NCBI GenBank assembly: GCA_001873285.1
Contig: MNYV01000097.1
Location: forward strand, 1-6,727
Reading direction: 5' to 3'
From: Nitrospirae bacterium CG2_30_53_67
Lineage (GTDB): Bacteria; CG2-30-53-67
DNA: 6,727 nt
In this document: piece after piece, positions 2,481-6,683 of the stretch
How positions within the stretch are numbered: position 1 is the first letter of the stretch
Layout: every line of letters starts with the position of its first letter
Notes under the pieces: model-generated
What the model was told of the DNA's origin: nothing
Database searches by the model: none
Seen by the model: the letters and a program-made list of their open reading frames with translations, nothing else
Translations under genes and position numbers: made by a program

Positions 2481-3731
2481 ATGGGATATGTAAAAGGTCT
2501 GAAGTGCAGGGAATGCGGAAGGGAATATCCCAAGGGACCGGCGAATATCTGTGAATTCTGTTTCGGCCCGCTGGAGGTGACCTACCAGTACGATGAGATC
2601 CGGAAGGTCCTCTCACGTGAGGTGATTGCCTCCCGCCCCCCGAATATGTGGCGCTATGCCGAACTCATGCCGCTGGACAACGCGCCTACGGTAGGTTTTG
2701 ATGTGGGTTTCACCCCCCTGGTTCGGGCGCACAATCTGGGCCGTGCCTTGGGGGTTTCGGAACTTTACCTGAAAAATGATGCCGTAAACCATCCCACCCT
2801 TTCCTTCAAGGATCGTGTGGTTGCGGTTGCGGTTTCCAAGGCCAGGGAATTCGGCTTCGATACCGTGGCCTGCGCATCCACCGGGAACCTGGCCAATGCC
2901 GTGGCCGCCTCCGCCGCTTCTGCCGGCCTGAACAGCTATATCTTCATCCCCTCGGATCTGGAGCAGGGGAAGATCATCGGCACCCAGGTCTTCGGCACCC
3001 ATCTGGTCGGTGTGCTGGGGAGTTATGATGACGTCAACCGTTTGTGCACGGAGATTGCGGACCGGTACCGCTGGGCCTTTGTGAACATCAACATCAGACC
3101 CTTCTACGCCGAAGGGTCCAAGACCTTCGGGTACGAGATCATGGAGCAGATGGGGTGGCGGGTCCCGAAACACATTGTGGTTCCCATGGCCGGCGGGTCC
3201 TTGATCACCAAGATCCGTAAGTCCTTCAAAGAGTTTAAGGAGATCGGCTTGGTTGAACCTGAATCATGCGGCACCCGGTTTTATGGCGCCCAGGCCGCCG
3301 GATGCTCTCCGATTGTGACGGCGGTCAAGAACGGGACCGATCTTTTCAAGCCCGTGAAGCCGCACACCATTGCAAAATCCCTGGCCATCGGGAATCCGGC
3401 GGATGGTTTCTACGCCATCCATGCCATCAAAGAGTCGGGGGGATGGGCTGAGGAGGTCACAGATGAGGAGATCGTCCAAGGGATCAAACTGCTGGCTGAA
3501 ACCGAGGGGGTTTTCACGGAAACGGCCGGCGGGGTGACCGTGGGCGTGGCCAAGAAGCTGATTGAGCAGGGACGGATCCCGAAAGATGAGTCCATCGTGA
3601 TCTCCATCACGGGAAACGGGCTCAAGACCCAGGAGGCCTTGATCGGGAAGGTCAAGGCGCATCAGGTGATTGATTCGAAATTGTCGTCCTTCGAGGCCCT
3701 TTTACTGGAAAAAGAAGCGAAGGTATGGTAA
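2481..3731 (+). CDS. thrC: Threonine-synthase-family PLP enzyme, possibly a carrier-dependent sulfhydrylase
   Basis: A 416-residue cytoplasmic fold-type II PLP enzyme. Threonine synthase converts O-phosphohomoserine to threonine. Residues 9-27 form a zinc ribbon (C9-x2-C12...C24-x2-C27), seen in many bacterial and archaeal relatives. The PLP lysine is K110 in HPTLSFKDR. The substrate loop is ASTGNLANAVAA (132-143), the glycine-rich phosphate-binding loop lies near PMAGGS (235-240), and TGNGLK (377-382) is the C-terminal family motif. Length is normal and nothing is broken. ATG 2481 follows GAAGGGA (2468-2474). The next gene, 37 bases on, is a CysO-like sulfur carrier, in the place where mycobacteria pair CysO with the PLP sulfhydrylase CysM. 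I infer it may transfer carrier-bound sulfur onto O-phosphohomoserine (giving homocysteine) or O-phosphoserine (giving cysteine). A plain threonine synthase remains possible. Confidence 0.9.
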   Translation: MGYVKGLKCRECGREYPKGPANICEFCFGPLEVTYQYDEIRKVLSREVIASRPPNMWRYAELMPLDNAPTVGFDVGFTPLVRAHNLGRALGVSELYLKNDAVNHPTLSFKDRVVAVAVSKAREFGFDTVACASTGNLANAVAASAASAGLNSYIFIPSDLEQGKIIGTQVFGTHLVGVLGSYDDVNRLCTEIADRYRWAFVNINIRPFYAEGSKTFGYEIMEQMGWRVPKHIVVPMAGGSLITKIRKSFKEFKEIGLVEPESCGTRFYGAQAAGCSPIVTAVKNGTDLFKPVKPHTIAKSLAIGNPADGFYAIHAIKESGGWAEEVTDEEIVQGIKLLAETEGVFTETAGGVTVGVAKKLIEQGRIPKDESIVISITGNGLKTQEALIGKVKAHQVIDSKLSSFEALLLEKEAKVW

Positions 3732-3756
3732 AAGAAACAAAACAACACGACTTGTT

Positions 3757-3764
3757 GAGGAGGA
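3757..3764 (+). promoter_or_regulatory. Ribosome binding site fixing the sulfur-carrier start
   Basis: GAGGAGGA ends 4 bases before ATG 3769. The reading frame is open back to an ATG at 3670 inside the PLP-enzyme gene, but that start has no such site and would add 33 residues absent from the family. The site decides for 3769. Confidence 0.8.
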
Positions 3765-3768
3765 AAGG

Positions 3769-4044
3769 ATGAAGGTGAATGTGAGGATTCCGACGCCATT
3801 GAGGTCATTGACCCATGGCCAGGCAGAGGTTCCCATTGAAGGAAAGACCGTCCAGGAACTCGTAGAAAATCTGGAGAAGGCCTATCCGGGGATCAAGGAG
3901 AGGATCTGTGATGAACAGGGGAACCTGAGACGTTTTGTCAACCTTTACCTGAATGATGAGGACGTCCGTTTTCTGAAGAATCTTTCGACCGAGGTTCGTG
4001 ACGGGGACGGGCTTTCCATTGTTCCGGCCATTGCTGGAGGTTAA
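3769..4044 (+). CDS. CysO/MoaD/ThiS-type ubiquitin-fold sulfur carrier protein
   Basis: A 91-residue beta-grasp protein whose C-terminus is AIAGG. In this family the last glycine is adenylated by an E1-like enzyme and converted to a thiocarboxylate that donates sulfur. The sequence resembles mycobacterial CysO more than MoaD or ThiS. It shares an IPTPLR-type first strand, a THGQ turn, the segment RRFVNLYLNDEDVRFLKNL (residues 56-74), and DGDGLSIVPAIAGG at the end; CysO ends AVAGG. It follows the PLP enzyme by 37 bases and is followed by the NIL gene after one base. The probable E1 partner (4881-5687) and a JAMM protease able to release the product (5687-6196) lie in the same cluster. I infer a role in cysteine or homocysteine synthesis rather than molybdopterin or thiamine, as no genes of those pathways are present. 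Confidence 0.92.
   Translation: MKVNVRIPTPLRSLTHGQAEVPIEGKTVQELVENLEKAYPGIKERICDEQGNLRRFVNLYLNDEDVRFLKNLSTEVRDGDGLSIVPAIAGG
4036..4040 (+). promoter_or_regulatory. Ribosome binding site of NIL gene 1, overlapping the carrier's Gly-Gly codons
   Basis: GGAGG lies over the two glycine codons GGA GGT that end the sulfur carrier, 5 bases before ATG 4046. The same bases specify the functional tail of one protein and start translation of the next, giving close coupling. Confidence 0.75.
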
Positions 4045-4045
4045 G

Positions 4046-4282
4046 ATGAGAAGAAAGGTCTATTTGACCTTCCCAAGGCATTTGATACAGAAGTCTCTGA
4101 TATACCAAGTGGGTCATCAATTCGAGGTGGTGACCAATATCCGGTGTGCCAGTGTGACCGAAGATCTCGGGCTGGTCGGCCTGGAGTTCGAAGGGGAGCC
4201 GTCGGAGATCAAAGCGGCCCTGAATTTTTTAGAGGCCGAAGGGGTCAAGGTTGAACCGGTGGTTATGGATGTGGTGGAGTAA
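4046..4282 (+). CDS. Stand-alone NIL-domain protein 1
   Basis: A 78-residue protein that is one NIL domain (a ferredoxin-like beta-alpha-beta fold), first known as the C-terminal substrate-sensing domain of MetN methionine ABC transporters. Features are KVYLTFPRHLIQKSLIYQVG at the N-terminus, the VVTNIRCASV strand and the closing EIKAALNFLEAEGVKVE helix-strand. In archaea and anaerobic bacteria, NIL domains fused to ferredoxins act with COG1900/DUF39 proteins in homocysteine formation from aspartate semialdehyde. This copy has no ferredoxin part and a single cysteine in NIRCAS. Its start is one base after the carrier's stop and is set by the GGAGG overlapping the Gly-Gly codons. Its job is unknown. 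Reasonable guesses are binding a sulfur amino acid or serving as a scaffold or sulfur-handling partner of the carrier. Confidence 0.9.
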   Translation: MRRKVYLTFPRHLIQKSLIYQVGHQFEVVTNIRCASVTEDLGLVGLEFEGEPSEIKAALNFLEAEGVKVEPVVMDVVE

Positions 4283-4501
4283 ATTTTAATAAAAACATCA
4301 GGGGTCAAGGGGTCAAGGATTCGAGGGGTCAAGTGAAGTAGTAAAAACATAAGGAGCCGAGGGTCCTATGGTTACGCTTCGCGTGCACCGCTTTTCTATA
4401 TTTTTGTCGTTAGATCCCGGCATCTCCTTGAATTTATTTTTGCCGGGCCGGGACCGTCTGTGACGGCTACTAGACTAAGACGTCTTGGGGGCAAGGGTTC
4501 C

Positions 4502-4606
4502 AGTGTTTTTCTCTGGAGATTTTGTTTGCGTTTCAGTATTTCACTTGACCTCTTGAACCCTGGAATCCTTGAACCCTTTTTTATCTACTAAACGGGAGAA
4601 GAACCT
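4502..4606. repeat. Dispersed direct repeat, copy 2
   Basis: Same-orientation copy of the block at 1-104. The opening 47 bases differ at two positions, the short-unit middle is rearranged, and the closing part ACTAAACGGGAGAAGAACCT is nearly the same. It ends 23 bases before the second NIL gene. Its middle section (4541-4580) is also in inverted relation to 4301-4336. Confidence 0.85.
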
Positions 4607-4616
4607 GTTTTTATAT

Positions 4617-4621
4617 GAGGA
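4617..4621 (+). promoter_or_regulatory. Ribosome binding site fixing the start of NIL gene 2
   Basis: GAGGA is 8 bases before ATG 4630. The in-frame ATG at 4615 overlaps this site and has no site of its own, so 4630 is preferred. The protein then begins MSKKTVHLTFP, matching the start of its paralogue. Confidence 0.65.
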
Positions 4622-4629
4622 ATTGCAAC

Positions 4630-4854
4630 ATGTCTAAAAAGACCGTCCACCTGACCTTTCCCGAAGAACTTATTCAGGAGCCGGTCATCTACCGGATCGG
4701 GCATGAGTTCAGGGTCGTGACCAGCATCTTCCTTGCGTCTGTGGGTGAGAAAGAGGGGTGGATCGACCTCGGCCTGGAAGGGGATGACCAAGAGATACAA
4801 AAATCCATTGAGTATATGAAAAGCATGGGTATACGCGTTGCGGAGAAGGCATAA
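4630..4854 (+). CDS. Stand-alone NIL-domain protein 2 (paralogue of the first)
   Basis: A 74-residue single NIL domain clearly related to the protein at 4046-4282. Both share an LTFP-x2-LIQ opening, IY-x-x-GH-x-F-x-VVT-x-I, ASV, an acidic EG turn and a final amphipathic helix ending in G-(V/I)-(K/R)-V. It has no cysteine in the mature region, whereas the first copy has one in the central strand, so the two may differ in function. It lies 26 bases before the E1-like gene. It is probably a duplicate retained with a distinct partner or ligand. If translation began at 4615 it would gain MRNCN with one cysteine. No transport genes are nearby, so a methionine-transporter role is unlikely. Confidence 0.9.
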   Translation: MSKKTVHLTFPEELIQEPVIYRIGHEFRVVTSIFLASVGEKEGWIDLGLEGDDQEIQKSIEYMKSMGIRVAEKA

Positions 4855-4880
4855 AAAAGGGTTTTGCGAAAGGGTCTGAG

Positions 4881-5687
4881 ATGTTCGATTTCAACGAGGA
4901 GGAAATCAGGCGCTACAGCCGGCATATCCTCCTTCCTGAGGTAGGCGGGAAAGGGCAGAAAAAAATCAATGGAGCGAGGGTCCTCCTGATCGGCGCCGGG
5001 GGGCTGGGCGCCCCGGTGGGATATTATCTCGCTGCGGCGGGCGTGGGAAAGATCGGGATCATGGACGGGGATCAGGTGGAACTCAGTAATCTGCAGCGGC
5101 AGATCGTTCACAGCACCGAAGACCTGGGAAAGAACAAGGCTGTTTCAGCCCAGGAGACGCTCCTTGCCCTGAATCCATGCATCGAGGTCCTGACCTACCA
5201 GGAACGGGCCGCCTCGGAGAATATACTCGACATCATGGCGGATTACGATATCGTCGTGGATGGGAGCGACAATTTCCCGACCCGGTATCTGGTCAATGAT
5301 GCCTGTGTGCTGACACGAAAGCCCCTTTCCCACGGGGCGGTTTTTCGGTTTCACGGCCAGGCCATGACCATTGTTCCGGGTGAAGGGCCTTGTTACCGCT
5401 GCCTGTTCCGCGAGCCTCCTCCGCCGGGCATGGTGGCCTCCTGTCAGGAGGCTGGTGTCCTCGGCGTTCTCCCCGGGCTGATCGGTCTGGTCCAGGCCAC
5501 GGAGGTTTTGAAGCTGATTCTCGGTGTCGGCAGCGTGCTCAAGGGGCGTCTTCTGATCTATGAGGCCCTGGAGATGGAGTTTAAAAACATGAAGGTCAAG
5601 AGAGACCCGGACTGCCCGGTGTGCGGTGACCATCCGACCATCCGGTCGTTAATGGATTATGAGGAATTCTGCCGGGTGAACTTTTAA
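4881..5687 (+). CDS. MoeB/ThiF/HesA-family E1-like adenylyltransferase
   Basis: A 268-residue enzyme that activates the C-terminal glycine of a ubiquitin-fold sulfur carrier with ATP. Visible features are the N-terminal RYSRHILLPEVGGKGQKKI typical of MoeB, the nucleotide-binding GAGGLG (38-43), D62 and the SNLQRQ motif with N70 and R73, K86, and D130 in DGSDNFPTRY. C188 in VASCQEAGVLG sits at the position of the thiol cysteine of ThiF and MoeB. Two zinc pairs are C171-x2-C174 and C245-x2-C248. It has no C-terminal rhodanese domain (unlike MOCS3/Uba4), so sulfur must come from another protein. The DsrE protein two genes on is a candidate. An AAAGGG-type site precedes ATG 4881. The stop TAA shares its last base with the next ATG. 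The carrier at 3769-4044 is the natural substrate in this cluster. Confidence 0.95.
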   Translation: MFDFNEEEIRRYSRHILLPEVGGKGQKKINGARVLLIGAGGLGAPVGYYLAAAGVGKIGIMDGDQVELSNLQRQIVHSTEDLGKNKAVSAQETLLALNPCIEVLTYQERAASENILDIMADYDIVVDGSDNFPTRYLVNDACVLTRKPLSHGAVFRFHGQAMTIVPGEGPCYRCLFREPPPPGMVASCQEAGVLGVLPGLIGLVQATEVLKLILGVGSVLKGRLLIYEALEMEFKNMKVKRDPDCPVCGDHPTIRSLMDYEEFCRVNF

Positions 5688-6196
5688 TGATTTCCCCCGC
5701 TGGGACAGGATATAGGGCAGAGCCTTCCCGAGTTTTCGGTCTCCCTTCCATGATTGAGATTCCTCACCGTCTGATCGAGAAGATCCTCATGCATGCAGGA
5801 GAGCGTCATCCTGATGAATGCTGCGGGATCCTCATCGGGCGGGTACAGGGAGCGGAAGGAGTGAAAAGAGCGGAGGAAGTCCGGAGGACCGAGAACGCAG
5901 AAATCCACGGGCGGGATTCCTATCTGATCCATGGGCGGGAATTCCTAAGCGCAGACCGGGCCGCCCGAAGCCGGGGCCTGGAAATCATCGGGTTTTATCA
6001 CTCCCATCCCGGGTGCCCCTCAATTCCGTCGGAGAGGGACCATGCCCGGGCATGGCAGGGATACAGCTATCTGATCGTCTCTCTCAGGGAAAATGGAATG
6101 CCGGAATGCCGTTCCTGGGCCCTGGATGCGGATGGACGGCGGTTGAGAGAAGAAGAGATACGGGAAATTTTTGAAGACGGTTCAGGCGGCAAATGA
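5687..6196 (+). CDS. JAMM/MPN (M67-family) metallopeptidase, Mec-like
   Basis: A zinc peptidase of the JAB1/MPN fold, 169 residues from this start. The full JAMM signature is present: E44 in DECCGILIG, H105-S-H107 in YHSHPG, then S115 and D118 with the exact H-x7-S-x2-D spacing. Mycobacterial Mec removes newly made cysteine from the C-terminus of CysO, and HcyD does the same for homocysteine in Wolinella; this protein fits that role. ATG 5687 overlaps the stop of the E1-like gene by one base and has GGGTGA upstream. It adds about 21 residues (SPAGTGYRAEP...) not typical of the family. The ATG at 5750 (MIEIPHRLIEKIL) gives the usual family start but has a weak ribosome site. Which is used is unsettled. 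Its stop overlaps the DsrE start by four bases. Confidence 0.93.
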   Translation: MISPAGTGYRAEPSRVFGLPSMIEIPHRLIEKILMHAGERHPDECCGILIGRVQGAEGVKRAEEVRRTENAEIHGRDSYLIHGREFLSADRAARSRGLEIIGFYHSHPGCPSIPSERDHARAWQGYSYLIVSLRENGMPECRSWALDADGRRLREEEIREIFEDGSGGK

Positions 6197-6519
6197 GCGA
6201 GAAAAAACAAGACAGGTCCAGGATCTGTATCCTGGTGGCCAGCAGCCCGGAAAGCGAGAATACCCGCACGCTCTTCAAGATCACCGAAGCGGCGGTTGCC
6301 ATGGGGCATCAGGTGGAAATCTTCCTGATGAGCGACGGCGTTTATCATATTCTTCATCATAATTTTTCGAATCTCATTGCGAAAGGGGCGGAAGTGGCCC
6401 TGTGTGCCTATGATGCCATGGAAAGAGGTCTCGATAAAAAAACCGGAATCCACTTCGGCAGCTACTATGATCTGGCCGTGATGGTTGCAAAGGCCGATGG
6501 TTTTCTGGCCCTGACCTGA
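6193..6519 (+). CDS. DsrE-family sulfur-relay protein
   Basis: A 108-residue protein of the DsrE/TusD-like fold, small proteins that pass persulfide sulfur between partners in the cytoplasm. It has the first strand ICILVASSPES, the helix TLFKITEAAVAMGHQVEIFLMSDGVY, and C71 in VALCAYDAMERG, the place of the active cysteine in DsrE and TusD. It ends in AKADGFLALT, a normal family end, so it is not truncated by the palindrome that starts 7 bases later. ATG 6193 overlaps the protease stop as ATGA, indicating translational coupling. The adenylating enzyme has no rhodanese domain and no other sulfurtransferase is in view, so I infer it may deliver sulfur to the carrier. A role in a separate Dsr/Tus-type relay with the next gene is also possible. 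Confidence 0.88.
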   Translation: MSEKKQDRSRICILVASSPESENTRTLFKITEAAVAMGHQVEIFLMSDGVYHILHHNFSNLIAKGAEVALCAYDAMERGLDKKTGIHFGSYYDLAVMVAKADGFLALT

Positions 6520-6525
6520 CTAAGC

Positions 6526-6683
6526 GGCCCTATTCGTAAATACGGTGGCATTCGAGTGCCGCAGGGCGGCCTTCTCTCCGTTCCGCTCCTTGCGGTGTAC
6601 CAGAGGGGTACGCCTCAGTCGCGCGCGGGGATGAGACCGCCCTGCGACCCTCTCGGTACGTCACCATATTTACGAACAGGGCC
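6526..6683. mobile_element. 158-bp MITE-like nested palindrome
   Basis: The outer arms 6526-6547 and 6662-6683 are reverse complements at 20 of 22 positions (GGCCCTATTCGTAAATACGG at the left). Inside them CGCAGGGCGG (6560-6569) pairs perfectly with 6637-6646. At the centre GGTGTACC (6594-6601) pairs with GGTACGCC (6607-6614) around a five-base loop. No gene is inside and I see no clear target-site duplication. The layout suggests a non-autonomous mobile element or a strongly folding intergenic RNA that could damp transcription into the next gene. Confidence 0.7.

Follow-up and report, generated by a model that had tools for sequence, protein, structure and literature searches.

A gene cluster pairing a threonine synthase-like enzyme with a ubiquitin-fold sulfur carrier as a candidate homocysteine biosynthesis operon

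Background

Which amino acid is made by a threonine synthase-like enzyme whose gene stands among genes for sulfur transfer? The question is raised by a stretch of DNA from Nitrospirae bacterium CG2_30_53_67 (contig MNYV01000097.1, here C97), 6,727 nucleotides (nt) long, the whole of which was analysed and is called the window below; the source genome measures 2.36 Mb and is 95% complete. Between positions 1986 and 6519 of the window lies a cluster of genes, all on the + strand, for an Rrf2-family regulator, a pyridoxal phosphate (PLP) enzyme of the ThrC family, a sulfur carrier, two NIL-domain proteins, an E1-like enzyme, a JAMM protease and a DsrE-family protein. The PLP enzyme, a ThrC-like protein of fold-type II (2481-3731, + strand; Pfam PALP 2.5e-69), will be referred to as TL. 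The parts at 2481-6519 were identified by family-level matches to Pfam and NCBIfam profiles; all lie at the coordinates given by the initial annotation, which had not included the Rrf2 gene (1986-2429).

Sulfur amino acids are known to be made with the help of a carrier protein in the CysM-CysO-Mec system and by MetY acting with HcyS, HcyD and HcyF. The protein thiocarboxylate pathway is mentioned by Price et al. 2018 (PMC5764234), who concluded that at least one further homocysteine pathway is still to be discovered.

The cluster described here is probably a homocysteine (methionine) biosynthesis operon, in which TL would use O-phosphohomoserine and the thiocarboxylate of the carrier. The observations behind this reading are the gene content, its conservation, a distribution complementary to that of known homocysteine enzymes, linkage to S-adenosylmethionine (SAM) riboswitches and an altered motif in TL. 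It also appears reasonably likely that TL is an undescribed fold-type II homocysteine synthase evolved from threonine synthase, drawing sulfur from the thiocarboxylated carrier and the carbon skeleton from O-phosphohomoserine, and that many uncultured lineages (Omnitrophota, Nitrospinota and others) depend on it alone for homocysteine.

Results

Conservation of the gene cluster

When one genome per species was scanned, 80 loci with 64-95% identity to TL were obtained, in records labelled Deltaproteobacteria, Omnitrophota, Nitrospinota, Planctomycetota, Dadabacteria, Armatimonadota and others. Further loci were added to give a total of 103, and the denominators below refer to loci with enough sequence. 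In 72 of 75 loci the carrier gene followed TL at a distance of no more than 2.5 kb; a NIL gene was found within 3 kb in 55 of 72, an E1 gene within 7 kb in 60 of 64, and a JAMM gene near TL in 37 of 52; a CysK/CysM-like enzyme was encoded near TL in 62 of 69. Because the carrier follows the ThrC-like gene so regularly, the arrangement is not due to chance. The conservation beyond a single genome on which the initial annotation had counted is thus there, TL and carrier occurring together in several phyla.

In the family to which the window belongs the gene order is Rrf2-TL-carrier-NIL-(NIL)-E1-JAMM or DsrE, followed in loci L132 and L133 by genes for TusA and a CysM-like enzyme. DsrE is replaced or accompanied by TusA in relatives. 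The minimal unit consists of TL and carrier, as in L033 and L041, where CysK, E1, NIL and JAMM are all missing nearby. Other neighbours in relatives, named from sequence, are siroheme sulfite reductase, TusA, PAPS reductase and siroheme/heme genes.

Distribution of TL and of known homocysteine enzymes

The distribution was determined in a sample of 146 Omnitrophota genomes picked regardless of TL, which contained TL in 33, DUF39 in 49 and MetY/MetZ/MetB in 69 genomes. TL was present in 7 of the 115 genomes with DUF39 or MetY/Z/B, in contrast to 26 of the 31 with neither (Fisher P 1.2e-17, shared ancestry being ignored). The background of missing genes can be judged from the genomes without TL, only 5 of 113 having no route. 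Where MetH was present and a known route absent, TL was found in 13 of 14 genomes. DUF39 and MetY/Z/B exclude each other likewise, with 3 genomes carrying both, so TL behaves as a third, alternative homocysteine enzyme; DUF39 was also carried by 5 of the 33 TL-bearing genomes. Among 50 TL genomes from several phyla, DUF39 (COG1900) was detected in 17, the window's genome included, and full MetY/MetZ/MetB-family proteins in 10. Weak PF01053 matches (E ~1e-8), which are partial hits in other PLP proteins, were excluded from these counts. Neither type of enzyme was found in 28 genomes, of which 19 have MetH.

The distribution also bears on the substrate. MetX was present in 66 of the 69 Omnitrophota genomes with MetY/Z/B, whereas all 26 genomes that have TL and no known route lack it; MetA was found in none of the 146 genomes. 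With both enzymes missing from these 26 genomes, O-phosphohomoserine is the only familiar activated homoserine remaining. By this elimination and by ancestry, as the substrate of the family from which TL descends, O-phosphohomoserine would be the substrate of TL.

No DUF39 protein (PF01837) is encoded in the window. The same genome has, on a separate contig, a second operon of the order Rrf2-DUF39-CysK-NIL/ferredoxin (L130, G000:C51, 970-6018), a homocysteine route according to Price et al. 2018 (PMC5764234). The question of the initial annotation, whether the gene set recurs in genomes lacking metX/metY/metZ and the COG1900 route, can therefore be answered in the affirmative for many genomes, whereas the window's own genome has COG1900; a rule that confines the set to genomes without COG1900 is therefore rejected. 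Since the DUF39 operon is complete, TL would be a second route in this organism, perhaps used at another sulfide level.

SAM-I riboswitches in front of TL

Rfam scans of 77 sources from TL loci revealed 27 SAM-I riboswitches, 26 of which end 69-237 nt before TL on the same strand. The remaining one (L061) heads an operon in which a CysK-like gene comes first and TL second, and there was no SAM-I riboswitch elsewhere in the scanned sequences. In some bacteria SAM riboswitches can also control cysteine genes. Taken alone, the riboswitches therefore speak against threonine and for the sulfur amino acids; taken together with the distribution, methionine fits best.

The control of cysteine genes by such riboswitches, and the closeness of the carrier to CysO (see below), would agree with a different product: O-phosphoserine could be converted by TL on the carrier to cysteine or some other beta-substituted amino acid, in the way that CysM works with CysO. 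This is quite improbable, given that most loci already have CysK/CysM genes and that TL takes the place of homocysteine enzymes in the distribution. Moreover, transsulfuration from cysteine to homocysteine needs PF01053 enzymes, which are absent from the genomes having TL only.

TL compared with threonine synthase

For an alignment, 81 TL proteins were combined with 23 other ThrC-related proteins. The PLP lysine K110 is invariant in TL, and R206 and Y209 of TL are present in 81/81. Replacements common to all 81 TL proteins are N157 to Arg, R160 to Tyr, S155 to Asn, Q164 to Ser, T88 to Leu and P288 to Thr (Thermus numbering), with R160 being kept in 19 of the 23 comparison proteins. The sequence AGGSL stands in TL at the place of the GNAGN of ThrC, one or two positions being more than 90% rather than 100% conserved, and the ThrC motif NS-x-NP-x-R-x-EGQ is replaced by NINIRPFYAEGS in the TL of the window. 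Compared with ThrC, TL thus shares the fold and the PLP lysine and differs at these motif positions. Some of the replaced residues serve in threonine synthase as ligands of the substrate phosphate; these roles are general knowledge, no paper on them for the Thermus enzyme having been found in the open-access literature searched. At its N-terminus TL has a zinc ribbon (C9/C12/C24/C27). The TL proteins grouped together in a tree, apart from the other ThrC-related proteins, and this grouping was moderately supported (77/89).

Could TL nevertheless be a genuine threonine synthase whose gene has drifted into a sulfur operon? Its structure model is good (pLDDT 87), and the best fold match is the plant threonine synthase 2c2b (Z 41.8); the best-matching solved enzymes, with which TL is 27-37% identical, are threonine synthases. 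The family call points the same way, TIGR00260 scoring 284 bits (cut-off 167, exceeded) versus 45 bits for cysteine synthase A, while PRK08197 with 301 bits narrowly missed its cut-off of 303. No second ThrC was seen in 4 of the 50 TL genomes. In the other 46, however, a second ThrC homologue occurs beside TL, and that of the window's genome, a separate protein of 353 residues (L002), has kept the canonical motifs. Taking into account also that the motif is rewritten in all TL members, that TL is under SAM riboswitch control and that it complements the homocysteine enzymes, a drifted threonine synthase is very improbable. A plain threonine operon was rejected in view of the second canonical ThrC, the altered motif and the SAM riboswitch.

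The carrier, its probable maturation and its partner enzymes

The carrier of the window (3769-4044, + strand; ThiS 3.1e-17) is a CysO/SAMP1-like ubiquitin-fold protein with the C-terminus PAIAGG. Among solved structures its best matches are the CysO-like 4n6e_B and M. tuberculosis CysO (3dwg_C; E 1.2e-22). A molybdopterin or thiamine carrier set was rejected, as the carrier is closest to CysO-like proteins and no such partner genes are among the window proteins. PAIAGG is kept among the carriers, yet in 77 of 93 something follows it: a short tail in 58, a fused NIL domain in 16 and a fused E1 in 3 (L039, L066 and L068, in which PAIAGG is internal). The commonest residue next to PAIAGG is Ala, then Ser. 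The window's own carrier ends at Gly-Gly and is unmasked.

A masked carrier should have to be cut before its Gly-Gly can be adenylated, hence a protease is needed. A model of a carrier-NIL fusion (pLDDT 88, pTM 0.51) shows two domains joined by an unstructured linker of lower confidence that contains the Gly-Gly, as expected of a cleavage site. Where the full context was available, a JAMM gene lay close to 18 of the 25 masked carriers and to 2 of the 8 unmasked ones, which is a weak association (P 0.035). The JAMM/Prok-JAB metalloprotease of the window (5687-6196, + strand; Prok-JAB 2.8e-24) has a HSHPGCPSIPSERD motif (HSHP...S..D); since similarity to 2kcq/2kks sets in around residue 22, translation probably starts at the ATG at 5750 and not at 5687. 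The masked Gly-Gly tails suggest that the protease probably also matures the carrier, and, most relatives being masked, this role is equally or better supported than release of homocysteine.

The E1-like ThiF/MoeB adenylyltransferase (4881-5687, + strand; ThiF 8.6e-84) matches the structures of ThiF, MoeB and Uba4. The ThiF domain, residues 12-247 of 268, is its only domain, and the protein is therefore without rhodanese. A likely substitute is the DsrE-family protein (6193-6519, + strand; DsrE 4.8e-10), which has a cysteine in VALCAYDAMERG and could serve as sulfur relay. NIL-domain protein 1 (4046-4282, + strand; Pfam NIL 3.6e-10) matches in its profile the NIL domain of MetN, the methionine importer; NIL-domain protein 2 lies at 4630-4854 (+ strand; Pfam NIL 4.1e-14).

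Whether the carrier works for TL at all has to be asked because of the cysteine synthase genes. TL might make homocysteine from O-phosphohomoserine and free sulfide, with carrier, E1 and JAMM serving the neighbouring cysteine synthase in a CysM/CysO/Mec-like manner; the frequent CysK/CysM-like genes in the cluster (see above), the CysM-like gene and TusA coming after it in the window's family and the sulfite reductase genes of relatives, which could provide sulfide, all fit such a division of labour. The carrier, however, tracks TL even without CysK/CysM nearby (L033, L041, L122). Furthermore, in 12 loci (L036, L038, L039, L040, L044, L048, L050, L052, L062, L066, L079 and L082) CysK has an N-terminal ThiS-like domain of its own, ending in MGGG, as a carrier-enzyme fusion. 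In these loci each of the two PLP enzymes thus has a carrier of its own, that of TL being the PAIAGG protein. We consider the use of free sulfide by TL unlikely.

Discussion

Proposed pathway

At the pathway level, the proposal of the initial annotation, that homocysteine is made on a carrier by a PLP enzyme related to ThrC, is strongly supported by the distribution, the riboswitches, the lack of MetX and MetA and the lost motif. All catalytic steps, the choice of O-phosphohomoserine, sulfur donation by the carrier and the roles of JAMM (including release of the product), DsrE and NIL proteins are inferred. E1 would adenylate the Gly-Gly C-terminus of the carrier, and the DsrE or TusA protein would give the sulfur to form the thiocarboxylate. 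TL would bind O-phosphohomoserine on PLP and eliminate the phosphate as threonine synthase does; where threonine synthase adds water at the beta carbon, TL would accept the thiocarboxylate sulfur at the gamma carbon to yield homocysteine, which is probably attached to the carrier first. JAMM would uncover the Gly-Gly of the carrier where it is masked, and may also free the bound homocysteine. The NIL proteins, as relatives of the MetN NIL domain, probably sense or bind methionine or homocysteine.

Several observations weigh against this pathway. The NCBI equivalog model TIGR00260 calls TL a threonine synthase, and one Omnitrophota clade has neither E1 nor JAMM genes in the TL neighbourhood. 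Given how often CysK/CysM accompanies the cluster, the carrier might be used for making cysteine. Cysteine or sulfur assimilation in general could also account for the riboswitch taken by itself, and the Rfam scan found no SAM riboswitch in the window, where the Rrf2 gene occupies its place. The distribution test, besides ignoring shared ancestry, rests on metagenome-assembled genomes. Finally, with a complete DUF39-NIL/ferredoxin route in the genome of the window, TL is dispensable there for homocysteine.

The cluster is a concrete candidate for the homocysteine route of many lineages that annotation makes look like methionine auxotrophs. If the proposal is true, it corrects a likely widespread "threonine synthase" label on TL, adds a second PLP fold class recruited for gamma-sulfhydrylation, and provides a bacterial parallel to the branch point of plants, at which threonine and methionine compete for O-phosphohomoserine. 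The Gly-Gly tails masked by NIL or E1 fusions would be a bacterial parallel to the ubiquitin precursors that require a protease.

Comparison with known systems

The MetY-HcyS-HcyD-HcyF pathway of Wolinella succinogenes, the details of which are general knowledge, is similar in having a ubiquitin-like carrier, an E1, a JAMM protease, the same proposed product and a carrier tail that requires trimming, as the tails of most relatives here probably do. Its PLP enzyme, in contrast, is the fold-type I MetY, whereas TL is of fold-type II and ThrC-like, and no match to PF01053 (the MetY family) was found by Pfam among the window proteins. The TL system differs also in its NIL proteins and in lacking MetX, so the activated homoserine is probably a phosphate ester. 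The CysM-CysO-Mec system of M. tuberculosis shares the fold-type II PLP enzyme, the JAMM protease and a carrier, CysO, that is among the closest solved ones. CysM is a cysteine synthase, however, while TL belongs to the ThrC family and complements homocysteine enzymes; and CysO ends at Gly-Gly, which most carriers here extend past.

Related operons were predicted by Iyer et al. 2006 (PMC1779556). Operon 4c combines a ThiS/MoaD-like protein, an E1 and a JAB protein with cysteine synthase, and operon 4e a rhodanese-less E1 with SirA and O-acetylhomoserine sulfhydrylase. The cluster of the window has the carrier, E1 and JAB in common with 4c and the rhodanese-less E1 with 4e, and adds the ThrC relative and NIL, the text of that paper naming neither threonine synthase nor NIL. 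The route through DUF39 (COG1900), NIL/ferredoxin and COG2122 in Desulfovibrio and methanogens likewise features a NIL domain and leads to homocysteine, but its known proteins include neither a PLP enzyme nor a carrier, it does not pass through homoserine (PMC5764234), and most TL genomes lack it. Plants are described as making homocysteine by way of O-phosphohomoserine, and the same has been proposed for an archaeal enzyme of the CGS/CBL family (PMC5120207). Plant cystathionine gamma-synthase and the possible phosphohomoserine sulfhydrylase TK1449 of Thermococcus share the substrate proposed for TL, but both are fold-type I enzymes of that family (PF01053). No description of the exact gene set, or of a ThrC-derived enzyme in a homocysteine role, was found in the open-access literature searched, from which subscription papers were mostly missing, so that novelty is unproven.

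Upstream region and other features of the window

The Rrf2-family regulator (1986-2429, + strand; Pfam Rrf2 6.6e-39) is CymR/IscR-like and stays below both equivalog cut-offs (NCBIfam CymR 133 bits, cut-off 195). Its gene ends 51 nt upstream of TL and is part of the same conserved set, preceding TL in the relatives of the family. It is itself preceded on the + strand by a probable promoter, TTGACA (1904-1909) and TAAAGT (1927-1932) separated by 17 nt, and by a perfect 25-nt palindrome, AATTCCTA-N9-TAGGAATT (1933-1957), for which 0 of 200 shuffles yielded a match. The half-site GATAGGRATAATAAG is conserved 5' of Rrf2 in the relatives L107, L108 and L109, and to judge from these sequences the palindrome is likely the Rrf2 operator.

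Further upstream are a nitroreductase-family gene (217-786) and, between it and Rrf2, a probable remnant of an ATPase/DUF4143 gene with broken frames (840-1623). Coding sequence for a nitroreductase C-terminus apparently lies directly 5' of Rrf2 in L107 and L108 too, and this gene may belong to the conserved neighbourhood.

An intergenic repeat is present in two copies that are 88% identical (1-104 and 4502-4606). The second copy lies inside an element with inverted arms (4285-4346 and 4531-4592) that separates NIL1 from NIL2, unlike in the relatives L131 and L132, where the two genes are close together. Directly past the DsrE gene and close to the contig end, there is an inverted repeat of 22 nt (91%; 6526-6683).

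Outside the window, the DUF39 operon L130 adjoins genes for a DNA cytosine methyltransferase and a very-short-patch-repair-like protein. TL-carrier-NIL is followed in three Omnitrophota loci (L111, L112 and L121) by genes that read as biotin genes (bioB, fabG/fabF-like, bioF and bioA), and a gene for a Thi4-like thiazole synthase is located near the cluster in an Omnitrophota genome (L078, 11181-12625).

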